DNA of 64,000 nt from Capsicum annuum (Eukaryota > Streptophyta > Magnoliopsida > Solanales > Solanaceae), in NCBI RefSeq assembly GCF_002878395.1, contig NC_061121.1, forward strand, positions 12,028,121-12,092,120. Reading direction: 5' to 3'. Position 1 is the first letter of the stretch. The number at the start of each line of letters is the position of its first letter. A program made the position numbers and the translations under genes. The notes under the pieces were generated by a model. The model made no database searches. It was not told the DNA's origin and saw nothing but the letters and a program-made list of their open reading frames with translations. Below, in pieces: positions 8,630-61,926 of the stretch.

Positions 8630-9734
8630 CTTTGTTTGATCTTCTTGAACCTAGCTCTTGGGATCTCCAGTCTGCTAGGTAGAGTTACCGCTATGCTGAC
8701 TTGTGTAGGCCTTAAACCCATTTCCTTGGATATCCTTTCTACTCCTTCTCTAGATAGGCCTTTTGTAAGTGGATCCGACACATTATCCTTGGACTTTACA
8801 TAGTCTACAGTAATAATTCCACTAGAGAGAAGTTCTCTAACGGTATTATGTCTTCATCTTATATGACGAGATTTACCGTTATACATCATGCTCCCTGCCC
8901 TACCTATTGCCGCTTGGCTATCACAGTGTATACATACTGGTGCCACTGGCTTGGGCAATACGAAATATCTTTCAAGAAATTTCGGAGCCATTCTGCTTCT
9001 TCACCAGCTTTATCTAATGCGATAAATTTAGATTTCATTGTAGAGTGAGCAATACACGTCTGTTTGGATGATTTCCAAGAGACTGCTTCTCCACCGATAG
9101 TAAATACATATCCACTTGTGAATTTTACTTCGTTCGATCCGGTGATCCAATTTGCATCACTATATCCTTCAAGTACCGTAGGATATTTATTATAATGCAA
9201 AGCATAATTTTGAGTGTATTTAAGATACCCCAAAACTCTTTTCATTGTCATCCAGTGAGTTTTGTTGGGATTATTCGTGTACCGACTCAATTTACTGATA
9301 GCGCATGCTATGTCTGGTCGTGTACAGTTCATTATATACATTAAACATCCCAATACTCTTACGTACTTCAATTGCGAGTCACTTTCACCTTCATTCTTTT
9401 GAAGTGGAAAGCTCGCATCCAATGGAGTCTTGGCATTACCGAATTCCATATACTTGAACTTGTCAAGTACCTTTTCAATATAATGAGACTGTGACAATGC
9501 TAACCCTTGTGGAGTTCGATGGATTTTTATACCTAAGATCACATCTGCAACTCCAAGGTCCTTCATATCAAACTTGCTCTTGAGCATTCGTTTTGTTGCA
9601 TTTATGTCAAAAATATCTCTACTAATGATCAACATATCATCCACATATAAACATGCAATGACTTGGTGATTTGGAGTGTCTTTAATATAAACACATTTAT
9701 CACATTCATTTATTTTGAATCCGTTTGCCAACAT
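8630..9734 (-). pseudogene. copia-2 reverse transcriptase end and RNase H
   Basis: A 276-codon open stretch (9734-8904), then a frame change and further readable sequence to about 8630. It starts inside reverse transcriptase with '[12 protein letters not shown]' (the YVDD active-site box), continues through '[15 protein letters not shown]', the connection 'YSDANW', and RNase H with '[17 protein letters not shown]'. The enzymes copy element RNA into DNA and remove the RNA strand. The normal acidic residue after the 'STM' box is replaced by K, and the frame breaks at about 8904, so the enzyme is inactive as encoded. Confidence 0.85.
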
Positions 9735-9758
9735 GGTTTGGTCAAACTTCGCATGCCA

Positions 9759-10550
9759 TTATTTTGGTGCTTGCTTTAGTTCATATAATGACTTAATAAG
9801 TTTACACACCTTGTTTTCCTTTCCTGGAACCACAAAACCCTCAGGTTGTTCCATGTAAATTTCTTCCTCCAAATATCCATTTAGGAATGCGATTTTTACA
9901 TCCATTTGATAAATTTGAAGATCATATATCGCCGCCAAGGCAATTAACATTCGAATCAAGGTTATCCTTGTTACTGGCGAGTATGTATCAAAGTAATCAA
10001 GGCCTTCCTTCTATTTGAAGCCTTTTACTACAAGTCTTGCCTTGTATTTGTCAATAGTACCATCCGCCTTCATTTTCCTTTTGAAGATCCATTTAGACCC
10101 TAAAGGTTTATTTCTGGGAGGAAGGTCAACCAATTCCCATGTATGGTTGCTTAAGATTAAATCTATCTCACTATTTACTGCCTCTTTCCAAAAGGATGAG
10201 TCTGACGAAGACATCGCTTCTTTAAATGTTTGAGGCTCATTTTCTAAGAGAAATGTTACAAAATGATCCAAACAAAGTTGACGTTCTTTGACGTGTACTA
10301 CATCTTGAATTTTCTTCATTATGTACATTCTCACTTAGTTCATCTCGGGGTCGTTTAGATCCTCCACTAGACTGTTCATGTCTAATTTTATACGGGTAAA
10401 TATTTTCAAAGAATTCAGCATTGTCTGATTCAATTACCGTATTTTCACTAATATTCGGATGTCCGAATTTATGAACCAAAAATCGACATGCTTTACTACT
10501 CTTAGCGTATCCTATGAACACGCAGTCCACCGTTTTAGGTCCTATCTTAA
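9759..10550 (-). pseudogene. copia-2 integrase C-terminus and reverse transcriptase N-terminus
   Basis: Three overlapping open stretches (10530-10237, 10334-10011, 9959-9759) in changing frames. They show 'DCVFIGYAKSSKACRFLVH' (integrase end), 'EAVNSEIDLILSNHTWELVD', 'PLGSKWIFKRKMKADGTI' and 'YKARLVVKGFK' (start of reverse transcriptase), then 'MDVKIAFLNGYLEEEIYMEQ' with the first catalytic aspartate region. Frameshifts near 10320 and stops near 10010 and 9740 break it. Confidence 0.85.
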
Positions 10551-10590
10551 CCCTTTTAGGTATAGAAACTTGAACCTTCGCTAGACACCC

Positions 10591-11750
10591 CTACACTTTG
10601 AAATATTTCAAGTTAGGTTTCCTTCCTTTCCATTTTTCGTAAGGAATTGATTGTGTCTTACTATGGGGAACTCTGTTGAGTATACGATTAGCCGTAAGGA
10701 TAGCCTCCCCCCATAAGTTTTGTGGCAAACCAGAACTTATAAGTAAGGCATTCATCATTTCCTTTAAAGTTTGATTTTTCCTTTCCACAATTCCATTAGA
10801 TTGAGGTGAATACGGGGCCATAGTTTGATAGATTATTCCATTCTCTACACATATTTGCGCTAAGGGAGATTCATATTCTCCTCCCTTATCACTTCTTATC
10901 ATTTTGATCTTTTTGTCTAACTGATTTCCAACTTTAGTTTTATATTTCCTAAATACATCTATTGCTTCATCCTTACTATTTAGAAAGTAGACATAACAGT
11001 ATCTAGTGCAATTGTCAATAAAAGTTATGAAATACTTTTTCCCACCACGAGATGGTGTTGACTTCATATCACAAATGTCAGTGTGTATTAAGTCTAAGGG
11101 ATTGGAATTCCTTTCAACGGACTTATAAGGATGCTTTGCATACTTCGATTCTACACACGTTTGACACTTTGATTTATTGCACTCAAAATTTGGCAAAACT
11201 TCTAAGTTAATCAGTTTTCGTAACATTTTGTAATTAACATAGCCCAAACGATCATGCAATAAATCATAAGACTCAAGCAAATAAGACGAATTCGAACTTA
11301 TATTCATTTCAACAGTCATTACATTCATCTTATGAAGGCCCTCCGTGAGATAGCCTTTTCCTACATACATTTCTCCTTTGCTAACTACAATTTTTCCAGA
11401 AATGGTTACACATTTGAATCCATTCTTATCTAGAAGTGAAATGAAAATTAAGTTCCTACGTAACTCCGGAACATATAGCACATTGTTCAGTGTCAAAACC
11501 TTACCGGAAGTCATCTTTAGGCAAATTTTTCCTGTTCTCTCCACCTTAGCAGTAGTGGAGTTGGCCATGTAAAGCATTTCTTCTGCTTGAGCTGGAGCAA
11601 ATAACGAGAACAACTCTTTGTTTGCGCAAACATGGCGTGTGTCACCAGAATCCATCCACCATTCACGTGGATTCCCCACCAAGTTGCATTCCGTGAACAT
11701 AGCACACAGATCGTCATAATCTTTGTTGGACTCAATCAGATTCGCTTAGT
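10591..11750 (-). pseudogene. copia-2 protease and integrase
   Basis: 369 codons open (11700-10591). Protease begins 'WWMDSGDTRHVC': the usual catalytic D-S-G-A/T box has D in the fourth place. Integrase has an H...H...C...C zinc site ('LHDRLGYVNYKMLRKL', 'CQTCVESKYAKHP') and a D,D35E core ('DLIHTDICDM', 'IRSDKGGEYESP', then 'QSNGIVERKNQTLKEMM' with the glutamate). This is the best preserved part of the element, but the flanking breaks in gag and reverse transcriptase make the whole non-autonomous. Confidence 0.9.
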
Positions 11751-12708
11751 CCTTTCTCTTCCCTTTCTTCGGGGCTCGACAGTCTGTGGACTTGTGGCCA
11801 ATTTTGCCACAGTTAAAGCATTTTCCCTTGAACTTTTTCTTGGGTTGATTGCTTCTATGTTTAACTTTCTTTCTTTTCTTCGAGTTGTTTTGGTCATCTT
11901 CTACAATATGTGCTCAATTCATTGTAGAATTTCCCTTTGACCTTCTTTCAGCAACTTTATTGTACTCTTCAATACGAAGTCGGACAATAAGATCTTCAAC
12001 GGTCATCTCCTTGTGTTTATGCTTTAAGTAGTTTTTGAAGTCTTTCCACAAAGGTGGTAGCTTCTCAACTATCGCTGCTACTTGGAAAGCATCATTCACA
12101 ATTAAACCTACAAAACAGTTTATGTGAGTATTAAGAACATTTTTAATTTGTTCAACTAAGGTATTTTTCAAAGATATATCTTCTGCTAGGAGATCATGTA
12201 TGATGACTTGCAACTCCTGTACTTGAGAGACAACAGATTTGGTATCAATCATTTTGAAGTCCAGGAACCGTGCAACAAGGAATTTCTTAATTCCCGCATC
12301 CTCCGTTTTATATTTTCATTCAAGTGCCCCCCACAGTTCCTTTGATGTCTTGGTTCCACTATAGACATTGTAGAGGTCGTCTTGGAGACCACTCAGAATA
12401 TAGTTCCTGCAAAGGAAATCCGAATGTTTCCGAGCTTCTACAATAACGAAGCGGTCTTTGTCCAAGGTTCCCTCGGGCACCTCAGGAGCGTCTTCGCTAG
12501 TGAACCATTGTAGACATAGAGTGGTGAGGTAAAAGAACATCTTTTGTTGCCACCGTTTGAAGTCAATGCCAAAAAAGGTTTCGGGCTTTTCCGGCGGTGC
12601 CATCGTTGGCGGAGCATTTGTGCGACTTGATGTGGCAATATTATTTGCCCCCACAGACGTAGTCGCATCCATCATTTGGTTGTCAGTTGTCATTTTTTCT
12701 GTCACCAC
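11751..12708 (-). pseudogene. copia-2 gag
   Basis: Starts ATG at 12708, with a low-complexity N-terminus and then the copia gag domain ('FFGIDFKRWQQKMFFYL', 'LSGLQDDLYNVY', 'SKELWGALE'). It meets a TGA at about 12315 where arginine is expected, and resumes in the same frame ('VVEKLP'-like region reads '[19 protein letters not shown]'). A CCHC zinc knuckle (C-x2-C-x4-H-x4-C) reads at about 11790-11830 in a shifted frame. Gag packages the element RNA. One stop and a frameshift disable it. Confidence 0.85.
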
Positions 12709-13991
12709 AAGACAGAAAACTTAGTATTTTTCAAAATACTATTTATAAAGTTAAATAACTTGAAACAATTCTTCTTGTTTTTGGTTAACGATGAAGTTTT
12801 ATTACTTCGAATCGTTAACCGAATGAACCTTAACTTGTGATGAAGATTTTATGTCTTCTAATCACTAGTTAAATTCAAGCGGAGTAGAAAGACTAAGATT
12901 TAATCTTCAAAAACAAGCAATACAGATTCTGTAAGGTTATTTCCTTAAGATTGTTATCTTCCACAATACGGGTATATAGAATCTGTATAATAGAATAACA
13001 ACTTCAACTCGAGTTCAAGTATGAACAAGAACATAGTGAAGTTGAACAAATACCCTCAACACAAGATCAAAATGATCTTTCCAAGAGGTGTATTTTATAT
13101 TTCAGAAATATAGATGAAACAGAAATTGTTAAGGCTAAATCGTCCGAATTCACGAACTTTCCTTAAGGAAATAATTCCCCTCACTGTACCCGAGGTTGCG
13201 GAATTTTCCCTCCCAGGATAAAATGGCCAACAATTCAAGTATAGCGGTACCTCAAATACTTGAATTCTTCGAACGCACTCTCGGTTTGATTGATCACAAA
13301 GAGTGTTTAGAAGACAAGAAGATTTATGTGTAATCTCAAATTTTTCATTCTGTAACCTGTGGACGAAAACAGGTTATTTATAGCCTCAGCATGCCCCTCC
13401 GAAAAGGTGGCATTGGTTCAATTTTAGAGGTGCGTCTTTTCCTAAAAATGTATGTTTGTTTATTTAAAACAGTGCAGTAATTTTCTGAAACAGTATACCT
13501 TTTCAAGAACAAGTGCACCGGTTCGAAACAGTGCATCATTTCGTTGAAGAGTTGCATCTGTTTGAACCAATGTATATACTATTTCGAAAATCTGCATCTG
13601 CTCAGTCGAAACAATGCATTAATTCAGAAACACTACAGCATTTCGTTGCACCAGTTCGAACACAACACTGTTTCATGTCGAAATAGTGCAATTGTTCACT
13701 GTATGCATGCATAAATAAATGGAACGTTATTGTTTCGGATTGAATTTATTTGTTTCCGTCAAATAAAATTTGTCCAAAAAAATAAATTTCATCAATCATT
13801 TGTCAACTCCAAATCCAAGCCCAAGCCTAAGCAAGCAACAAGAATAGCGTGAGGCATCTTTATTTTCTTGCCTCACTTACTATTTGAAGTAAGTGTTTCA
13901 CTTTATAAACACTTTAAAGTTCTCTTCTTCCACCAATGTGGTAGAAGAGTAAACTTTCCAACTTAAAGAGTACACTTGTCAATTTGGGTGT

Positions 13992-20949: not shown

Positions 20950-21190
20950 AGATCTAGATCTGATCGGATTTGAACTCTGAAGCAAAGTTGTGACCAGTAG
21001 ATTCATGATTCCGGCCGATGGTCACACACCCCCGCCGGCTGACCAAGCTAACAGATCTAGATCTGATTGGATTTGAACTTTGAAGCAGAGCTGCAAGCAG
21101 TACAAAATACAAACCCAAGCATTATAGCAGCCTCCATCTTTCATGATTCCGACCAATGGTCAGCCGCCATCGCTGTCTGACCAATCTGAT
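20950..21190 (+). repeat. L1 5' UTR tandem repeat
   Basis: Two diverged copies: 'agatctagatctgat.ggatttgaact' at about 20950 and 21055, each followed by 'tcatgattccg.cc.atggtc' at about 21004 and 21142 and by '.tgaccaa'. Repeated 5' monomers often act as internal LINE promoters. Confidence 0.75.
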
Positions 21191-23176
21191 TTTCCCCCAT
21201 TACCCTCAGTAACCAACATATCCCAACTCCCAAATACAATCATTCCAAATATCTCTCCTCTAGCTACCTCCTATGCAGCGATCATCCAACCTAATGATTA
21301 TTTGAATAATATTACAAGGACAACGATTGCTGTCGATCCCATCCCAATAAAGAAAGTAGATCTAATAGATGGAATTCTAGTAGTTAAATGGACGGAGCAA
21401 GAAGTCAATAGAATGAACATAATTGAAAACTTGCAATATGCTATTATTGGCAAATTTTCTTATAGTTGGTCAGAATTATCAGAATTAAGAGATTTAATCC
21501 CTAAGCAATGTGGGATTAAAGGTGAATGTAAGATTGGTTTTCTGAGAAATAGACATATCTTAATGAGATTTGATCTAGAAGAAGATTTCATTAATATTAT
21601 GTCTAAGAATGCTTATTACATCAATGCAAAGGATGGTAATTCATATCAGAAACTTCACAAGCAACTGCATGGATCTCATTTCCAGAACCCCTCCCCACCT
21701 TTTTTGTCAAAGAGGCATTGTTCTCATTGGCATCAGCTGTGGGAAAGCCTCTCCATCTTGATTCAGCAACTGTGACAAAACTTGCCCAAGTTGTGCTAGG
21801 GTGAAGGTCCAAATGGATTTGTTAGTAGAGAAACCTCAATTTGTTCACATGGAAATTGAAGATGAATCAGGCAAGGAAAATAGAATATGAAAGTGAAAAT
21901 TCAATATGATTCTTTACCAGCATTTTGTAAAAGGTGTAAACTCCAAGGTCATAGTGAGGTCGATTGTAGGGTGTTATATCCAGAGTTGAGGAAGGACACT
22001 GAATTTCCTGGAGAAACAGAATTATCTGAGCAGCAAAATGCAAATCCAACAAAGGAGAAAGTGGTACACAAGACCCAACAAAGAAATTTTCAACAGTGGA
22101 ATCCAACTAGGAGAAGATTCACATTGGAAAAGGACAAATTTTGTGATAATGCAAGAGATCCAAATGAAGATAACATGACCACTAAAAATCCTTTTGATAA
22201 TTTACCTGAAGACGATGATGATAAGGGAAAAAAAGTAGGGTCTGAAGAAGACACGAGAAGCAGACAATGCGAAAACAATTAATAAGGAAGAACTTACCAC
22301 TCGAAATTGGGTTAACTAAGCTTTTTACAAGAGGAGAGCATTAGATCAAGTGATAAGAAGAATAGTGGTGATCAAGAAGAGGCCCTTACTGATGTTGAGC
22401 CTGTGCAAAAAATGGGCAATGAAGAATCAGATGTGGTATCTACTGTAGAAGTCAGCAGTGTCAAAGAGTAGGGGCAGCAATACTAATAAAATCAGCAAGA
22501 AAATATAGACAACGCAGATATAGGAGCTGATGATCCCGTCAAGGCAAATAGTAACCTGCAGTATGATAATCTGGTGCATAATAATGGAAAAAAAATGGAG
22601 CAGGTGCAACTGCAGCAACAGAAACAATATTTAACAATCCTGCATAACACCAGTGATGAAGAAAGTAACCTGCAGAATGATCAGGAGTAACAACATGATG
22701 TAAATGTGGCCAATAAAGTAAATAATTTACAGATCAGTAATATAAATAAAAATTATGGTGATAAAGGTGAAGATGAAACTCTAGAAGCTGAGAACGACCT
22801 GGTTGACAAGGGTGGGGACAAAACTCTCTCACAGCAACAAATGGTGTTTAAAGGGATGGAGATAAAACTGTTAATTAAACCAGTTCCACAGGCCATTGTG
22901 GCTTTGACAGTTGATTCTCCTGTTAAGGTCCTACATGACATTGTTACACATAATATGGAGGAGATAATTGATCAGCATCAAGTGAAAGTAAATGATGAAA
23001 TAAGCAAGAAAGGTACAGATGAAGATAAAAACCAGCACAATCTCAATCATGCTTTGAAGGTGGCAGATTTATCACCAAATATTCAGTTAAAAGGGAAGAA
23101 GAACAAGGCTAATGCTGAAATCAGTATGCCCACAAGAATTAGTTTTAAAAGAAGTGTTAGATCCACGTATAAATGA
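21143..23176 (+). pseudogene. L1 ORF1 (RNA-binding, DUF4283-like plus zinc knuckle)
   Basis: ATG at 21143 opens 210 codons with 'LVVKWTEQEVNRMNIIENLQ', 'KGECKIGFLRNRHILMRFDL' and 'EEDFINIMSK', the pattern of the plant LINE and gag-like DUF4283 domain. After a frameshift near 21770 a CCHC knuckle follows ('CKRCKLQGHSEVDC') at about 21925-21970, then a long acidic, lysine- and glutamine-rich tail to 23176. ORF1 protein coats LINE RNA in the mobile particle. At least three frame breaks (about 21770, 22285, 22690). Confidence 0.8.
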
Positions 23177-24601
23177 TTTAGAAAGCACTTGTATGGAATA
23201 TTAGATTAGTCAGAAGCCAACATGCTTTTAATAGGGTTCAAATGCTTAACAAACATCACAAGTTCTTCCTCATTGCACTAATGGAGCCTTTTTAGCACAC
23301 GAGACACATTCAAAAGTATAAAAGAAGATTGGGTACGATGTTTTTTAATTACAATCAGAATGGTAAAATTTGTGTGTTCGTGCAGAAAAACATTCAAGTA
23401 CAGATTTTATCAAACTCTGAATAGAAAATTACATTATAGATCACGTTTCAAGCCTCTGGGGATTCCTTTATCTGCACTTTAGTATATGCTAAGTGCTCAG
23501 CACTTGAAAGGCTAAATTTGTGGGATGATATCTATTCACTGAGTCATAATATGAGGTTACCTTGGCTTGTAGGTTGGGACTTCAATGTTATTTTGAATGA
23601 TGAAGAGAATATAGGGGGTCTTCCTGTTTATCCTCAAGAATATGAAGACTTTGCATTTTGTGTGAACTCTTGTGAGCTTTTTGATATTAATTTTAAAGGA
23701 AGTCCATTTATATGGTGGAATGGGAGAGCTGATTCTGAATGTATATTTAAAAGACTCTATAGACTAATGATCAATCAATTTTTCTTGGTCATTTTGGAAA
23801 TGTAGAATTGGAGCATCTTGTAAGAACAGGGTCTGACCATGCACCCATGTTGCTCAATTGTGGGGGTCAGACTACTAATATCAAGAGGTCTTTTAGATTT
23901 CAAAGATGTTGTGAAAGATAATTAGGTTGTAGTTAAGTCCGATGACATTTTTATTTGCTTGAAACAGAAGATGAAGAGGACTAAAGTGGCATTGTCTCCA
24001 TAGATTAGGGAGAGATTTGGAGGTATTTTTAAACAACTGATAATAAGGGAAGATATTGTTAGGATTAAAGGTCTTTTTGAAGAACATCCATCTGCTGAAA
24101 ATAGAGCTATTCTTCAAAAGGCACAGGCTGAGTTCAAACAGTATTTACACTATGAAGAAGAATTTTGGAGACAAAAAGCTGGTGTTCAACGGTTTACTGA
24201 AGGAGACAAGAACACAAAATTTTTTCATAGTCTTGTGAAGGGAAGAAGAAAAAGGTTGCAGATCAAAAGAATCCTTAAAAGGGATGGGATTTGGGCTGAA
24301 CATTCTGAAGAGGTTGCTGGTGAGACTGTGGCCTTCTTTCAAGATCAATTTACTAGTGCAGAGACTGAGACTGACCTTTTTTAAACTGATCATATTTCCA
24401 TACTGGTTACAGAAGATGATGATAATGCCATGTTGAATGTTAATCCTACTGTGGAGGAAATTAAGAAGGTGGTTTTTTAGCTTAGTAGTGATAGTGATAG
24501 TGGGCCTGATGGTTTTACTGGGAACTTCTATCAAGTCTGCTGGGATATTGTAGGAAGAGATATTTTCAACGTAGTGGAGGCTTTTTTTAATGGTTCCGTG
24601 A

Positions 24602-25143
24602 TCCAGAGTAACGGTGAGATTGACGAGGATGTCTCGCACCGTATTGGGGCGGGATGGATGAAGTGGAAACTCGCGTCGGGGGTGCTGTGTGATAAGAAGG
24701 TGCCGCCCAAGCTTAAAGGCAAATTCTACAGGGTGGTAGTCCGTCCGGCCTTGTTGTATGGAGCGGAGTGTTGGCCAGTTAAGAACTCCCACATCCAAAA
24801 AATGAAGGTGGCAGAAATGCGGATGTTGCGCTGGATGTGTGGACTGACTAGAGGGGATAGAGTTCGGAATGAGACTATCCGGGAGAAGGTTGGTGTGACT
24901 TCAGTGGAGTGCAAGATGCGGGAAGCACGATTGAGATGGTTCGGACACGTGAAGAGGAGGGGCATGGATGCCCCGGTCCGTAGGTGTGAGAGGCTAGCGT
25001 TGGATGGTTTTAGGCGGGGTAGGGGTAGGCCGAAGAAGTACTGGGGTGAGGTGATTAGGCGGGACATGGAACAGTTACAGCTCACCGAGGACATGACCCT
25101 AGATAGGAAGGTCTGGAGGGCACGAATTTCGGCAGAGGATTAG
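24602..25143 (+). pseudogene. RTE LINE ORF C-terminal part
   Basis: 180 open codons without the reverse transcriptase core. This is the C-terminal half of the RTE polyprotein downstream of the polymerase fingers and palm, ending at TAG 25141-25143. The single open frame, free of stops, contrasts with the surrounding L1 and suggests that it is the younger insertion. It has no endonuclease or catalytic aspartates, so it encodes no working enzyme. Confidence 0.85.
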
Positions 25144-25455
25144 GGCCAGTTTGGGTCGCTAGTGTAGGGAATTACTTGGTGGGGGTGTTATTCCTGTTAT
25201 GATTCCGTGTTCCGTGTTCCATGTTTTATTACGAATCTGTGTGCTTTCCTCTGCTTTCCTCTGTTTTATATTACTTATGGGTGCCGTATTTATGTTATGT
25301 AATCTGCTTCTGTGCTTTACTATGTGTTTGTGTGGTATCTCGTGCCTTGAGCCGGGGGTCTATCGGAAACAGCCTTTCTACTTCATCAGAGGTAGAGGTA
25401 TGGACTGCGTACATCTTACCCCCCCAGACCCCACTAGGTGGGAATACACTGGGTT

Positions 25456-25473
25456 TGTTGTTGTTGTTGTTGT
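25456..25473 (+). repeat. (TTG)n tail of the RTE LINE
   Basis: Five to six TTG units ending the RTE element, the same tail type as at 14444-14454. Confidence 0.9.
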
Positions 25474-28400
25474 ACTCTTCCCAAATCTATTACTCATACT
25501 AACCTTGTCCTATTGCCTAAGAAAGAAGTTATTCAATTCTTTTCTGATATGAGACCGCTTAGTTTAAGTAATTTTCTTATCAAAGCTATCTCTAGAGTGA
25601 TTGATGATAGGTTGAAAAGACTTCTCCCAATACTAATCTCCCCTAATCAGTCTGGATTTGTTAAGGGAAGAAGCATCACAAAAAATATCCTCTTAGCTCA
25701 AGAAATTATTTCAGATATCAGATTAAGAGGAAAACTAACAAATGTTGTGATTAAGATTGACATATCCAAGGCTTATGATAGAGTGAATTAGGGATTTTTT
25801 TATCAGGGTTATGGAAAAAATGGGGTTTAACAGACTGGTTGTAGATAAAGCGTAGAGATTGGTATCAAATAATTGGTATTCAGTCCTCATTAACGGGCAA
25901 GCTCATGGCTTCTTTCATTCTTCTAGAGGTCTTAAATAGGGAGATCCGCTTTCCTCTGCATTATTTATTTTGGCTGCAGAAGTTCTTTCTAGAGCTTTAA
26001 ATAGTTTGTTCCATAATCAGGATTTCAAAAGATATGGAATGCCTAAGTGGAGTGAGGATATTAATCATCTTTCATATACAGATGATACTATTATATTTTT
26101 TAGTACAGAGAAGAAGTCACTTGATTTGGTTATGGAAAGGTTAGGCTTATATAAAGAGCAATCTAGGCAGAAGATTAATAAAGAGAAGAGTTGCTTCTAT
26201 GTGTATAGTAAAATTACTCATTCTATTGTTCAAATTATTGAGGATTGTACTGGCTTTACTAGGGGAAAGTTTCCATTGACTTATCTTAGTTGTCCTATTG
26301 GCCATGTAAGGAAGAGGAAAATTCACCTTTCTGATCTCAGGAAAAAAGTTCAAGGCAAATTACAGGCTTGGAAAGGGAAACTTTTATCTTTTGATGGTAT
26401 GTCTGTGTTAATTAATATTGTTTTGCAGAGTATTCCCATATACCTCTTATCTGTAATAACACCTCCTAAATGTGTTATTCATGATATGCATAGATTGTTT
26501 GCTAAATTTTTATGGAACTTTAAGGAAGAGAGGAGAAACAAACATTAGGTATCATGGTTTGATATTTGTAAGCCTAAGGTGGAAGGTGGGTTAGGCTTTA
26601 GATCTCTTTTTGATGTGTCCAAGGCAATGTTTGTGAAGCTTTGGTGGATTTTCAAAACTAAAAAGTCAATGTGGTCTATATGTATGTAGAATAAATATTG
26701 TAAGAGACATAGACCACAATTGGTAGAATGGAATGGAGGTTCTCAGACTTGGAAGTTTATGTTAGAAGCCAGGGATTGCGTTGATCAACAGATTTGGTGG
26801 AAATCAAACTGTGGTCATTCTAGTGTATGGTTTGATAACTGGACACAATTGGGTGCCCTGTACTATTATTTCCCAATTTCTCATTCTAACAATTTTGATT
26901 TTGAAGAGGTAAAACAGTTGATAATTCAGGGACATTGGAATGAAAAGCTCATGCTACAATTACTACCAGAAGATGTCTGCAAGCATGTCCAAAATGAAAT
27001 TGGAGTAGTAGAGGATACAGAAGAATGGGACACAACAAGATGGATGTTGACTAGCTCTGGGAAGTTTACTGTTGGAAGTGCTTGGAAGTTATTGAGACAA
27101 GGTAATGATGAACAAGAAATAGCTAAGAAAATTTGGGTGAAAGGAGTTCCATTTAAATTTTCTTTCTTTCTTTGGAGATTGTGGGAAAAAATACCCATTG
27201 GGAGGTTCTTGTCAAGATTAAAGAGGTGAATGAAGCTAAATGTTACTGCTGTAATACTGCAGAAGAAATTTTTGAACACCCTTTTGTGACTTGTTCTACG
27301 GCAAAAAAATTGCGGAACACTTTTGTTCCTATTGCTGATGTGCAGGGACCATTTTTACAGGTTGGAGATACCATACAAAAATGGTGGAGTAAAGAATGTT
27401 CATCAAATCTTAAACCTCTCTTCAAGGCAGTCCCATCATTTATCACTTGGAAAATTTGGAAAAGGAGAAACATAATTTCTCATGGAGGTAAGATGTCTTT
27501 TTATGGTATGGTTATGGAGATCAACAGAAATTTATACCATCTGGATACTGTTAGTTATCCTTGGTTGCAAAACATTCCTAATACTTGGCATCTAATGGTT
27601 CATTTTCTTACTGAATATACACCCATTATTGATTGTATCGTGGTGTACTGGAGATTGCCTAGATTAGGGACTTACAAATATAACTCAGATGGCGCAGTGA
27701 AAGGAGTTGGAGGTCCTAGTGCTGGGGCTTTTGTTATTCAAAATGATGAAGGCAATTTGATTCATGTTGAGTCTTTTCATTTGGGAAATACTTCAGTTCT
27801 AATGTCTGAAGCAGTGGCTTTGAGAAAAGGACTGGAATATTCTATACAACATCAGTACTTACCAGTACAGTTGGAGACCGACTCTTTAATGCTACAAAAG
27901 CTTTTGAATGGAATTTGGGAGGTTCCTTAGAGCATTCTGGTGGAGGTGAAAAGGATTAATGGTCTGACAATGAATGTTGATGCAACAGTGGAGCACATCT
28001 TTACAGAAGGCAACACTCTTGCAGACTATTTAGCCAATCAGTTTTTTTTTTGCAGGCACAACGGATATAATTTATTTAGTTTCCCAAGATTTACCAGCAA
28101 AAGGAAAAGCAATATTACAGTTAGATAAAACACAAATCCTCAATCTTAGAATTAGAAACATTTAAAATAGGAGTTTCAAAGCACAAGCGTAACTGATACA
28201 CATAAAAGAAATACCATACATAGATGATAAAGAAATATTAAGAACAAGACAACATTGAAAAGGCAAAATTTGTACCTGCAAATTTGCACGAGTGGATATA
28301 TAAGGCATTAGGCTGGTTATGCTGAGATGATAATTATTTGTGGCCTTCTTTTGCAGTGGTATTAGCTTCTTGGGGTTTAACCTACAGAGAAGTCCATGGA

Positions 28401-34861: not shown

Positions 34862-35800
34862 ATGGAAGGTGGTGCTTCAACATTTAGGGGTCAACTTGTT
34901 TACCATTTAGTAGTAAGGGAATTTCCAGATGTGTTCCCTGAAGATCTTCCTGGAGTTCCTCCCGGAAGGGAAATTGACTTCATAATAGACCTACTTCCAG
35001 ATACCCAGCCTATCTCTATTTTGTCATATAGAATGGCACCAGCAGAACTCAAAGAGTTGAAAGAACAATTGAGAGACCTTTTAGATAAGGGATTCATTAG
35101 GCCCAGTGTTTCCCCATGGGGCGCTCCAGTCCTTTTCGTGCGAAAAAAGATGGTTCTCTTCGTATGTGTATTAATTACCCTCAATTGAACAAAGTCACCA
35201 TCAAGAATAAATACCCATTTCCCAGAATCGATGACTTGTTCAACCAACTTCAAGGTGATAGTTACTTCTCTAAGATAGACCTCAGATCCGGCTATCGTCA
35301 ACTCAGAGTCAGAGAACGTGATATTTTGAAAACAACTTTCAGAACTCGGTATGGTCACTTCGAATTTCTAGTCATGTCTTTTGATCTTACCAATGCCCCA
35401 AAAACTTTCATGGACTTGATGAACATGGTGTTCAAACAGTACTTAGACATGTTCGTTATAGTCTTCATTGACGATATTCTTAACTATTCCCGTAATGAAA
35501 CTGATCATGCAGACTACCTCAGAATTTTATTGCAGACTCTTGGAGCTCATCAGTTATTTGTCAAGTTTTGTAAGTGTGAGTTTTGGCTAATATCAGTAGC
35601 TTTTCTTGGCTATATAATTTTTGGTGATGGCATTAGAATTGATCCTCAAAAGATCAAAGCTGTGAGAAACTAGCCCAAACCCATTTCTCCATCAGACATC
35701 AAGAGTTTTTTGGGTTTGGCTGGATATTACCAAAGGTTTATTGAAGGTTTTTCGTCTATTGCATCCCCATGCCCAGATTGACTCAGAAAAAAGCCAAGTT
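34862..35800 (+). pseudogene. gypsy-1 reverse transcriptase
   Basis: Starts in the pre-domain '[20 protein letters not shown]' and changes frame at about 35116-35150. Then '[20 protein letters not shown]', '[18 protein letters not shown]' and the active site '[15 protein letters not shown]' (F-I-D-D where Y-I-D-D is usual), followed by '[18 protein letters not shown]'. A stop at 35671 falls at a tryptophan position ('VRN.PKPISPSDIKSFLGLA'). The catalytic aspartates are kept, but frameshift and stops prevent a full product. Confidence 0.9.
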
Positions 35801-48844: not shown

Positions 48845-49756
48845 CTACACAAGCATATCACCAGGATAAGCACGAAGTTTAATGAAGTATAATCTTGGAT
48901 TAATCTCAAAACTGGATCTTGGAATTATAATATTTCTCCCAGGAGCTTTCATCATCTTGACAATAGGTTCTTTGCTTCTCCAACAACATGTAAATACAAG
49001 TTTCATAATCTTTATCAGTTCAAAAAACACTGTTTTGAGACCCTCCATTATCCAGGGAAGTAATCCCACATCGCGGTAGCAACAGTATATGAAGAGGGCT
49101 AGAATTAGAGCGATTATGATGTAAGGTAAAGCTACGTGAAACCAGTGATTGATCTTTTCGAGTCTCGTCTCTGGTGGAAACACCTCATCGAACCAATCTA
49201 CAATTTGTCCACATAAACTTTTCACTTGTCCAGTGAAATTGCCAAGTGCTACCAACACTTGCAAACCAAAACTTTTGAACGCTAGTAGCGCTTGACTACC
49301 AAAATTCTTCAGTGGTACTAGTACTTGTCGACATAAACTTTTCACTTGCCAAGTGAAATTGTCAAGCACTGCTAGCGCTTGCAAACCAAAACTTTTTATC
49401 GCTAGTAGCGCTTGACCACCAAAATTCTTTAGTGGTTTTAGTACTTGTTCACCAAATTTTTTCAGCGTAACTAATACCTGCATAACTGAATTCTTGATCG
49501 CAAGTGGCACTTGCCCAAAGAGGTGTTTGAGGGCGAGTGGCACTTGCACGAAAGCTTTTTGAAGGGACAATAGTACGTGCAAACCGAAATTTTTGATGGA
49601 CAATAGCACTTGTCCAACAAAATTTACAGGTTTCATTAGTAGTTGCCCAATAAAATTCATAATCATATGTAACACTTGCCCGCCAAAATTTAGCATCAAT
49701 AGTAGGGCTTCCTTCAATTTCTCCATTACAAAGCTCATAACTTCCTCTATCACCAT
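48845..49756 (-). CDS. Hendecad-repeat membrane protein (single exon, no J domain)
   Basis: 303 residues from the ATG at 49756 (GTG-free start, preceded by an A-rich leader). Residues 23-183 are 11-residue repeats with the pattern N-F-G-x-Q-V-L-L-x-L-K (e.g. 'NFVGQVLLSIK' at 45-55, 'NFGGQALLAIK' at 111-121). Unit 12 is a shortened 7-residue copy at 144-150. A 40-residue super-repeat (111-150, 151-190) duplicates three units plus 'FT.QVKSLC'. Then comes a charged loop ('PPETRLEKINHWFH'), a membrane segment at about 208-228 and a second hydrophobic stretch at 241-258. Such 11-mers can form amphipathic helices that lie on lipid. It shares the 'NHWFH.ALPY.I' segment with the genes at 57484 and 61027. 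No J-domain exon was found downstream. The family is unknown to me; the membrane or lipid role is inferred. Confidence 0.8.
   Translation of the reverse strand: MVIEEVMSFVMEKLKEALLLMLNFGGQVLHMIMNFIGQLLMKPVNFVGQVLLSIKNFGLHVLLSLQKAFVQVPLALKHLFGQVPLAIKNSVMQVLVTLKKFGEQVLKPLKNFGGQALLAIKSFGLQALAVLDNFTWQVKSLCRQVLVPLKNFGSQALLAFKSFGLQVLVALGNFTGQVKSLCGQIVDWFDEVFPPETRLEKINHWFHVALPYIIIALILALFIYCCYRDVGLLPWIMEGLKTVFFELIKIMKLVFTCCWRSKEPIVKMMKAPGRNIIIPRSSFEINPRLYFIKLRAYPGDMLV
49187..49426 (-). repeat. 120-bp coding super-repeat x 2
   Basis: Encodes residues 111-150 and 151-190 of the 48845 gene. 25 of 33 core residues agree ('SFGLQ', 'NFT.QVKSLC'). Confidence 0.85.
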
Positions 49757-57022: not shown

Positions 57023-57147
57023 TCATAAAGTTGGTAAAAATTTGTCCTTCATTCGAGAAATACGCTTAAACTTAATATCGTATATCAGATTATGAAACTC
57101 TATCCGGGTGAAATTTCATCAAGGCTTTTTTTGTAAGCAACGCGCAC
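57023..57147 (-). pseudogene. Broken J-domain exon (paralog of 59257-59397)
   Basis: A splice acceptor (minus 'gtttcag') is followed by the same exon start as the intact copy ('gtgcg.gttgcttacaaaaaa'). One extra A in the A-run shifts the frame, so the HPD region is out of frame, and about 17 bases are deleted in the middle. The end 'ccaactttatga' still matches. Upstream, intron sequence with 'gctgcatatcc' and then 'cacatcagataaca' shows that the two middle exons were deleted. A dead duplicate of the J-domain part. Confidence 0.85.
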
Positions 57148-57483
57148 CTGAAACGATTATTTGTTCTAAGTAATGTCTCTCGTGCTGTCATTCAACTGAT
57201 AATTCCACAAATAGAAATAGAAGAAAGAGACTGTCATAGAAGAAAGTAGCTGCATATCCAGAAGACTAGCTAATCCTAAGTAAACAAACATGTTGAAATA
57301 TGGGCTTCTTTCTGAACAGGTAAAAAAATCACATCAGATAACACAAAATCTTACTCTTCAAAGTTTATGGTTGACAACACTATCTAAACAGGAAAATCTA
57401 GCCAACTACAAACCAAAATCAATAACATAATGCTCACCTGATATTTTCTTTTCATCACATTAAGAAAGTTACATTATATTACA

Positions 57484-57795
57484 TCAACAAATAGAAAAAG
57501 CTTTATGAGAGTAGACCTTGGTCGGTTCGACCAGTACGTGATAAACTTTAGTAAGACATTCAGCAGTCAAAAGATCAATCAACTTGAGCAGTAATCCATG
57601 ACGGCCGTAGCAACAATATATGAAGAGAGGTAGAGACAACGCGACAATTATGATATCGTGTAAAGCTACATGAAGTTTAGGAATGCTCGGACTAGGCTGT
57701 TGTTCCTCTCTAATCGAAAGATCATTCAAAGTGTCATCAAGTCGAGGACTGCTCGGAGTAGGCTGTTGAGGAATGATCTCCGCAGCACTATAGAA
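57484..57795 (-). pseudogene. Degraded hendecad-family member, membrane part kept
   Basis: Open frame through the ATG at 57729 and upstream to about 57790. It has two copies of a Q-Q-P-x-P-S-x-x-P motif ('QQPTPSSPRLDD', 'QQPSPSIPKLH'), then 'HVALHDIIIVALSLPLFIYC', a membrane segment that aligns with 'HVALPYIIIALILALFIYCC' of the 48845 gene and with the 61027 exon, and a tail ending at 57484. The 11-residue repeats are absent. Together with the broken J exon at 57023-57147 it forms a tandem copy of the 59257-61926 locus. It could still be expressed as an 81-residue protein; I favour a pseudogene. Confidence 0.6.
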
Positions 57796-59256: not shown

Positions 59257-61926
59257 TTATAAAGTTGGTAAGTACTTGTCCTTCATTCGAGAAATAAGCT
59301 TAAACTTCTCCTCTGCTTCTACCTGCTGTCGTATATCTGATTGTGAAGTTTTATCTGGATGGAATTTCATCAAGGCTTTTTTGTAAGCAACACGCACCTG
59401 AAACAAGAATATATTCCAAGTGCTATCATTCTAACTGCGACCAACACTTCACAAATAGAAATAGAAGAAAAAAGCGGTCATATGGAGAAGATAGTCAGAC
59501 AAACCCAAAGTACAACTCCCAAAATCCCTATTAAAGACGCAAGAAATGAAAAGAAGTGGCTGCATATCCTGACCGAAGACTAGCTAACTCTACATAAGCA
59601 GGGACGTGAATCTAGAGAGCCAACAATAAGACGAGACAGTATTGGGAGAAAGATAAAACAGGTGTATAGATCAGAATGCGAAACAAAAGGATCATATGAT
59701 TGCTAAATTACAAGAGACGTAACCAACCACAGAGAAGGGCAAGAGTAAAATAAGATAAGAATGGCAATGCTTCACAAAAGTATGTTCCCTGGAATTATAT
59801 CTATTCAGTATTCTGATATTTTAAAATTACGAAGACTGAAGATATTTAGAGACTGAGCGTAAACAAACCTCATTACTAGTGCCATTACTAACTGTGATTC
59901 CCAACCCGCGCAACACTGATGCCATATCATGGCACGTCTCTTCAAGCTTACTGAGCTCCTTGCCAACTTCGGCTCGTATCTGCTCCTTCAACTTCGTATT
60001 CTCTAGGTCCTAAAAAAGGTTCATCAGATGGTTTATACACTAGGTAAAATCTAAATACGTTGTAATCAGAAAATAAAACAGAGGCAGCATAAGTGGCACC
60101 GGAAGAGAGGTATAAAGAAAATATGAAGATAAAGAGGCTTCAAAAAGCTGCAAAATAGACAACAGAAGAAGCCAAATTGCCATACCTTCTTTTGAGCTTC
60201 TCTCATTTCCTCCACACGCTGCTTTTTCCTCTTCTCGAGTTCTGCTAAACGAATACGTTCAGCCTCCTCTCTTTTCAGCAACTCCTTCAACTTTCTGGCT
60301 TCTTCTTCCTGAATACGTAACAAGCACATCAGATAACAGCACATCTTCTATTTCATCAAAAAGGGGATACACCCCGTGTACAGAGATATACATCAGAATT
60401 ATAAATGTATTGTTCTCTACCAGACATCATCAGCAGATTAGTGTGCAGTTGGTGCTAAAAATCCACATTTATTTTTTGTAATCGAGAAAACCTCAACGGG
60501 TAATGGCACACAGTTCAAAACTCGTATACAATTAGCACGGCGCTCTACCCTTCCCCTCTTAAACACCATGCTTTTATCCGCGGCTCTGTTCGAGCCTGCG
60601 ATGTGTGTCTAAATCACACATGACTGGTTGCGTTCTTGCTACTAGATCAAATCCCTTGCGGCATGCTCAAAAATATGCATAAGAAAAAAATGTCTAAATT
60701 TAGGATTAAGGACGAGAGCGTCCTAGCTGTTCTCTTTAGACATTGTCCACACACAACACCTTGTCAAGACTTATAGCCCACTCTCCCAACCAATGCGAGA
60801 CGCTAACCCACTCTAATACAGTAAAAAAAGTTATGATACAAATAGAACCCCTTCTCAGTAGATTATCATGCGTTATACATGCTTCAAGAAGTTCCATCCA
60901 ACCTAATTATCCTACCTTAAGGTACCTTAGTCTACATACTTTCTAAAATCTTCCTTCAACAATCAACAATAATGATTTTACTAAAACATTACCGTCAGAC
61001 TTTGCAATACAAAAAGTAACCATTACCTCGACTAGTTTTCTAGCACGGAGGTAGCAATAATATATGTAGAGAGCTCGAAACAGCGCAATAGTTATGAGAT
61101 ATGGTAAAGCTATGTGAAACCAGTGATTGATCCTTTCGAACCAATTCACAAGTTGCCCACATAAGTTCTTCACTTGCCAACCAAAATTCTTAAGTGTCAG
61201 TGACACTTGCTCCAAAAAGTTCTGCAACCACAATAGCACTTGGCTATCGAAGTTTTCAAGCCCCAATAACTCTTGCCCACCAAAATTTACCACCTTCTCT
61301 AGCAATTGCACACCAAAATTCACTGAGTTTAGTAGCAGCTCCCAACCAAAATTTACCAGCTTCAGTAACAGTTTCCCAGCAAAGTTTACCGGGTACGATA
61401 GCAGTTGCACAACAAAACATACCGGGTACGATAGCAGTTGCACAACAAAACATACTGGGTACGATAGCAGTTGCACAACAAAATACATCGGGTACAGTAG
61501 CAGTTTCACAACGAAATATACAGGATACAGTAGCAGTTTCACAATGAAATATACCGGGTACAGTATCAGTTTCACAACAAAATATACCAGGTACAGTAGC
61601 AGTTTCACAACAAAATATACCGCATACAGTATCGATTTCACAGCGAAATATACCGGGTACAATAGCAGTCGCACAACAAAATATACAGGATAGAGTATCA
61701 GTTTCCCAACAAAAATTAGTAATCTCCCACCAAAATATACCGGGGACAATAGCAGTTGCACACAAAAAATTAGTAGTTCCCCACCAAAATTTACTAGATA
61801 CAATAGCACTTGTCCAACAGAATCTATCAGGTTCAATAGCTCGTGTACAACAAAATCAACTAGTAGCACTTGTCCAGCAATGTCTACTAAGTTCAGTAGC
61901 AGTTGACTATCAAAATTCATCACCAT
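59257..61926 (-). CDS. Hendecad-repeat, membrane-anchored J-domain protein (four-exon model)
   Basis: Exons on the minus strand: 61926-61027, 60308-60186, 60009-59869, 59397-59257, all joined in phase 0 with GT...AG introns; 434 residues. Exon 1: about 22 eleven-residue repeats ('FVVKLLLYPVY', 'NFGWELLLNSV'), then 'QVKNLCGQLVNWF', 'ERINHWFHIALPYL' and a membrane span at about 270-291. Exon 2: charged helix ('EEEARKLKELLKREEAERIR'). Exon 3: helix 'LKEQIRAEVGKELSKLEE'. Exon 4: J domain with 'FHPDK' (HPD about 401-403) and 'VEAEEKFKLISRM'. J domains stimulate Hsp70 ATPase; the C-terminal exons resemble a plant DnaJ-like family. A co-chaperone bound to a membrane or lipid surface is inferred. Without splicing of intron 1, exon 1 reads to a stop at 60943. 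The N-terminus is unsure: an in-frame TAA lies just upstream, where the repeat predicts Q, and exons beyond may exist. Exons 2-4 are strong; the join to exon 1 is a hypothesis supported by phase and by the duplicate locus. Confidence 0.65.
60345..60942. other. Inside intron 1 of the J-domain model
   Basis: Noncoding apart from the exon 1 read-through tail (61026-60943). No recognisable element. Confidence 0.5.
61381..61710 (-). repeat. Coding minisatellite, 33 bp x 10
   Basis: Ten consecutive 33-bp units, no spacers, e.g. 'accgggtacgatagcagttg'. Each encodes one 11-residue repeat on the minus strand. The units at 61381-61479 are almost identical, so the array has changed length recently. Confidence 0.95.

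Follow-up and report, generated by a model that had tools for sequence, protein, structure and literature searches.

The window (the whole stretch of 64,000 nucleotides of Capsicum annuum DNA that was analysed) carries a minus-strand gene that we read, with somewhat better than even confidence, as a nightshade-specific chimera of neighbouring J-protein and hendecad membrane-protein genes, whose product would act as a membrane-tethered J co-chaperone. To judge from its sequence relatives, the fusion is probably a real invention of the nightshade family; the copy found in pepper may be functional or decaying.

Gene model and parts of the pepper chimera

The four exons, each with a length that is a multiple of 3, had GT/AG ends and joined in phase 0 into 434 codons followed by a stop (Table 1), so that the minus-strand model with consensus splice sites proposed in the initial annotation was borne out. 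The succession of parts described there (some 22 hendecads, then a membrane span, a charged helix and, last, the J domain with its HPDK) was likewise recovered from the translation, the periodicity and the DnaJ match. The charged helix (residues 293-366) contained 23 K/R and 20 D/E residues, and HPDK occupied residues 401-404. A Pfam search identified DnaJ (PF00226) at residues 378-425, with 28.8 bits against a cut-off of 27.8; no other Pfam family was found on the full protein, and none scored above the cut-off for exon 1 alone or for the standalone protein encoded elsewhere in the window. A comparison with plasmid records gave no match.

Table 1. Positions of the chimera, its parts and related copies in the window
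Feature	Position	Strand	Remarks
In-frame TAA	61936..61938	-	just 5' of the proposed ATG; lies in an apparently decayed GQVLL hendecad
Exon 1	61027..61926	-	residues 1-300; hendecad array and membrane span; derived from PF28138-type membrane protein family
About 22 apolar hendecads	61177..61902	-	residues 9-250
33-bp tandem array, centre of hendecads	61347-61714	-	11.2 copies
Membrane segment	61051..61122	-	residues 269-292; KD peak 1.66
Intron 1, likely breakpoint region	60309..61026	-	GT donor at 61026-61025
Exon 2	60186..60308	-	residues 301-341; charged helix, J-family homology
Exon 3	59869..60009	-	residues 342-388; last part of charged helix, first part of J domain
Exon 4	59257..59397	-	residues 389-434; J domain with HPDK, and stop codon
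HPD motif	59353..59361	-	residues 401-403
Membrane-span fragment of second, degenerate chimera copy	57487..57789	-	last exon of C. annuum model P0001
Broken J exon 4 of degenerate copy	57026..57164	-	one base inserted, 17 bases lost, premature stops
Standalone hendecad membrane protein, parent-like	48848..49756	-	intact, single exon, 303 codons, many hendecads; 9.5 kb from chimera

Two parent families

By homology, exons 2-4 correspond to those exons that encode the C-terminal end of a longer plant J protein. The module that they encode aligned to 87 of the 88 matches of the protein search (the exception being P0088), in agreement with the earlier view that the C-terminal exons belong to a conserved plant J family. 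Identity over this J module was 51-84% in 85 matches, two near-identical C. annuum models being left out, and 51-82% in the 82 non-chimeric matches; it reached 66-82% against 13 named non-chimeric matches from Solanaceae, in which homology extended over most or all of exons 2-4.

Plant J proteins of the P0007, P0011 and P0015 type, which are uncharacterised, had their charged helix and C-terminal J domain in common with the chimera, but possessed a long, motif-bearing N-terminal region in the place of its hendecads and membrane span. One Ipomoea entry of this family is named 'auxilin-like protein 1'. Motifs of the VxxIDV/IIFIDD type were present at least once in 56, and at least twice in 30, of the 82 non-chimeric matches, and in none of the five chimeras. 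Up to three N-terminal motifs (VVLIDV, VIFIDV or IIFIDD) were observed in P0006-P0014 and in other non-chimeric J proteins. We take motifs of this type to resemble SUMO-interaction motifs.

In an AlphaFold2 model of the C. baccatum chimera (P0003), high confidence was limited to the charged helix and the J domain; the J helices had a pLDDT >80 and flanked the HPD on both sides. The best solved Foldseek match of this model was the auxilin J domain (2qwn_B), with a probability of 0.99 but an E value of 0.2. AT5G64360/EIP9, first considered as the Arabidopsis relative, was dropped, as a sequence link to the pepper J family was absent; PMC7940691 names it as homologous to MASH, which is a J protein and in which a transmembrane domain was not detected.

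Exon 1 derives, at the level of homology, from the PF28138-type family of small membrane proteins, which is uncharacterised; the PF28138 label is a precomputed annotation carried by most exon-1-type matches and was taken over as given, the Pfam set used here having reported no such match even for proteins that bear the label, so that it seems to lack this model. A profile search started from nine exon-1-type sequences retrieved at least 76 proteins, three of which were the chimeras P0001, P0002 and P0003, and the matches listed came from Acorus, Canna, Persea, Liquidambar and many asterids. Among the 73 non-chimeric proteins in these listed matches, 36 were 110-127 aa long, and the strings FPPETR or FPPDTR and APGR occurred in 56 and 67, respectively. 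Members of the family are usually built from a short amphipathic start and FPPETR or FPPDTR, followed by a membrane span and, as the tail, KMMKAPGRN...YFxxLR. At least two hendecads were counted with a strict regular expression in two of the same 73 listed proteins (P0088, with 10, and P0089, with 11; the standalone window gene and the chimeras were left out of this count), and the short members inspected by eye had about one, versus about 22 in the chimera.

Pepper exon 1 contained a membrane segment homologous to INHWFHxALPYLIIA, and it is this segment (INHWFHxALPYLI), together with the hendecad composition, that it has in common with the family. By contrast with PF28138-type proteins, the chimera had neither the FPPETR motif nor the KMMKAPGRN...YFxxLR tail, whether in exon 1 or in the stretch that follows when its frame is read through. 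The membrane segment was 81% identical in DNA to the standalone gene of the window (over 61139-61050). This standalone gene is an intronless PF28138-type member with relatives across flowering plants, for which no stated function was found.

Chimeric gene models in relatives

The same order of parts was observed in P0001-P0005, which comprise gene models from C. annuum, C. baccatum and Datura, and P0005. The best protein matches of the pepper chimera came from C. annuum and C. baccatum. P0001 (C. annuum) matched 154 residues of exon 1 with 100% identity, started inside the repeats and ran into the degenerate copy; P0002, also a C. annuum model, used a different frame for part of exon 1; and P0003 (C. 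baccatum) is labelled partial. The initial annotation had put forward a new protein architecture. No described protein with a J domain and hendecads was found in the full-text literature searched (journals beyond its coverage may differ), where none of six gene or family identifiers occurred either and a single candidate paper was, by its title, on mitochondrial import. In the text of a pepper DnaJ survey (PMC5410566) the word 'transmembrane' occurs 0 times. Gene models with this architecture (P0001-P0004) were already in public protein sets, and the arrangement is a traceable fusion.

To place the J modules, a tree was calculated from 28 of them, namely that of the window and 27 chosen by hand from the 88 matches. 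The six chimeras formed one clade with a support of 92/93, which is below the starred threshold of 95/80, and none of 500 label shuffles gave a value as low for the chimera grouping. The four Capsicum rows were grouped at 99/97. In this 28-module tree, the branch of the chimeric J modules was longer than those of the canonical J genes of Solanaceae. This grouping fits a single origin of the chimeras.

P0005 was an uninterrupted chimera of 243 aa on a contig of 1,098 bases. Since this contig is shorter than the three introns of the window gene together (1,365 bases), it most likely stems from a spliced mRNA of the chimera in a related plant, the alternative being an intronless retrocopy.

Linkage of the parent families and likely position of the breakpoint

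Seven species occurred in both match tables; their entries were picked by hand, and co-location was read from contigs and locus tags. In five of these seven species, the parent families were located on one contig. The tags were 3 apart in Anisodus acutangulus (006622 and 006625), 9 apart in Cinchona (035975 and 035984), and 11 and 15 apart in Liquidambar (012648 with 012659 and 012663, on 354 kb). In Coffea and Fraxinus the shared contigs measured 33.5 and 44.7 Mb, and linkage there thus means the same chromosome only. The parent matches were on different contigs in the two remaining species, Datura and Anisodus tanguticus, and a further family member was also present elsewhere in three of the five linked species. 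The tags of the Datura chimera (024618) and of a J gene from that species (024616) differed by two, on contigs of equal length. From these gene positions the parents look like old neighbours, for which local duplication would suffice to join them.

When intron 1 was aligned to the standalone gene, its GT donor fell on coding sequence (GGATAATGG), and the donor region GAGGTAATGG was matched by TGGATAATGG. This points to an origin of the donor inside old coding sequence. The 3' part of intron 1 resembled an apparent retained J-gene intron in Solanum verrucosum P0006, a score reached by 12 of 1000 shuffles; it also resembled the degenerate middle copy, in a match made without a shuffle control. 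On the likeness to the J-gene intron, the breakpoint was placed, with modest support, inside the intron of the J gene that precedes exon 2.

Hydrophobicity and variation of the repeats

The hydrophobicity of the pepper chimera had its periodicity peak at 3.65 residues (power 11.8), and the power at 3.667 residues was 8.7, whereas 500 shuffles gave no more than 5.96. The mean KD of the repeats was 1.25 in pepper, 0.70 in the standalone gene and 0.68 in the Datura chimera. Windows of 19 residues with a KD of at least 1.6 made up 33% in pepper, versus 0% in the standalone gene and 1% in the Datura chimera; in the C. baccatum chimera (24%) and in P0005 (35%) their share was near the pepper value. 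The median hydrophobic moment was 0.25 in pepper versus 0.32 and 0.34 in the standalone gene and the Datura chimera, respectively. By these measures, the standalone and Datura repeats look like amphipathic helices lying on a surface, and those of pepper could be partially buried in the membrane. The 'lipid-surface helices' of the initial annotation were thus not established for pepper, because its repeats are so extremely hydrophobic that membrane insertion is as likely as a surface position. The AlphaFold2 model of exon 1 consisted mostly of helices (mean pLDDT 59.3, pTM 0.24), and given this low confidence only the term 'helical' was taken from it.

Among 11 repeat units, the differences by codon position numbered 165, 124 and 111. 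Unique changes comprised 10 synonymous, 16 non-synonymous and 1 stop, versus 9.8, 16.4 and 0.8 expected. Neither the codon-position nor the synonymous/non-synonymous test indicated constraint by purifying selection inside the tandem repeats, whose changes in the pepper copy looked neutral.

Alternative readings of the pepper locus

It is possible, if doubtful, that the fusion works in some relatives, whereas the duplicate in pepper is decaying or drifting neutrally; it would have lost its start region, its repeats would be free to expand and drift, and its J exons would simply not have closed yet. The 5' end bears on this directly. The start that had been proposed lies in a reading frame that was confirmed, but its ATG is internal to the repeats, an in-frame TAA stands just upstream, and the N-terminus of the relatives (EEVMSFVMEKLKEALL) was not found upstream of the pepper chimera, where the score was reached in 181 of 300 shuffles. 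A relict N-terminus was not found upstream of the degenerate middle copy either (91 of 300 shuffles). The neutral-looking repeat changes, the long branch of the chimeric J modules, the broken sister copy nearby and the identity of only 84% between the J parts of pepper and P0003, itself a partial model, point in the same direction. Against decay, the 434 codons showed no stop or frame break, all splice ends were intact and the HPD was kept, whereas exon 4 of the sister copy had accumulated several lesions.

An improbable alternative would be that gene predictors have wrongly bridged two separately transcribed genes, one with the membrane repeats and its end at 60943, the other a J gene that is truncated. 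Indeed, the frame of exon 1 stays open as far as the stop at 60943, and single-exon relatives exist; however, the read-through tail did not contain the KMMKAPGRN...YFxxLR end of the family, the fusion recurred in the Datura and C. baccatum models, and P0005 ran through both parts without a break on its short contig. Moreover, when four non-chimeric J proteins (P0011, P0012, P0015 and P0027) were compared with the window by tblastn, only exons 2-4 and the remnant near position 57 kb were detected, with no earlier J exon.

The stop-free run at exon 1 was 330 codons long, versus a longest run of 197 in 40 Markov-1 resamplings of the window. This test is weak because the 33-bp tandem units keep other frames open too: frames of 199, 188 and 150 aa were open across the exon 1 repeats, and the longest stop-free run of the window (384) was in another frame. 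The main support for the pepper chimera is therefore homology, not the open frame. That exon 1 is non-coding, satellite-like repeat DNA left open by chance, as several open frames might suggest, is very hard to credit, since its frame matches the standalone gene and the relatives in protein, including the non-repeated membrane segment.

Proposed function and comparison with known systems

For the membrane-tethered chimera that we favour, we infer the following course. The C-terminal part of a duplicated J gene (exons 2-4) would have been placed downstream of a duplicated hendecad membrane-protein gene, and a new splice donor inside the coding sequence of the latter, just past the span, would join both parts in phase 0. 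Once spliced and translated in pepper, the chimera would be held in or on a membrane by its span and hendecads, with the ER, the lipid droplet and the plasma membrane as candidates. Basic residues after the span would place the C-terminus in the cytosol, where the J domain is thus expected. The charged helix would hold the HPD-bearing J domain off the membrane surface, so positioned that it might recruit and activate cytosolic Hsc70 locally. With the loss of the N-terminal region of the J parent, and of the VxxIDV/IIFIDD motifs in it, the J domain would have moved from its ancestral site to the membrane.

The available part of a review table (PMC9798423) includes Hlj1, Sec63, DNAJB12/14 and AtERdj among the membrane-bound J proteins. 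Like the chimera, these have a J domain brought to a membrane by a hydrophobic anchor. The anchors given there are tail anchors, farnesyl groups, transmembrane domains, charged residues and a PTEN-like domain, whereas the pepper chimera has 11-residue repeats; this type of membrane anchor is absent from the lipid-interacting J proteins listed in that part of PMC9798423 and, if expressed, would be a candidate addition to them. Among 11-mer-repeat perilipins, Plin4 (PMC5889406) shares with the chimera a long, uninterrupted 11-residue periodicity that fits a 3-11 helix. That paper describes the Plin4 repeat as the least hydrophobic of the helices for which binding to lipid surfaces is known, whereas the pepper repeats are extremely hydrophobic, with the mean KD reported above, and are accompanied by a membrane span and a J domain.

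More tentatively, and rather as a speculation, the chimera might represent a new class of membrane-embedded J co-chaperone, in which tandem-expanding hendecads provide a tunable anchor to membranes or lipid droplets and a J domain taken from a motif-rich, possibly SUMO-linked protein recruits Hsc70. If it is expressed, the locus would offer a clean case of domain relocation, in which both parent families, the linkage that facilitated their joining, a likely intron breakpoint and a new splice donor are all visible. The natural series from about 1 to about 22 hendecads bears on how many apolar 11-residue units are needed for a hold on the membrane.

Other features of the window

The degenerate chimera copy, 2 kb away from the chimera (57789-57026, minus strand), retained a trace of the end of the J-gene intron and of the start of exon 2 near 57312. 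In addition, frames resembling retrotransposon polyproteins (Copia-like, LINE-like and Gypsy-like) were seen by eye at 8904-12720 (minus strand), 21128-27930 (plus strand) and 35101-35673 (plus strand).
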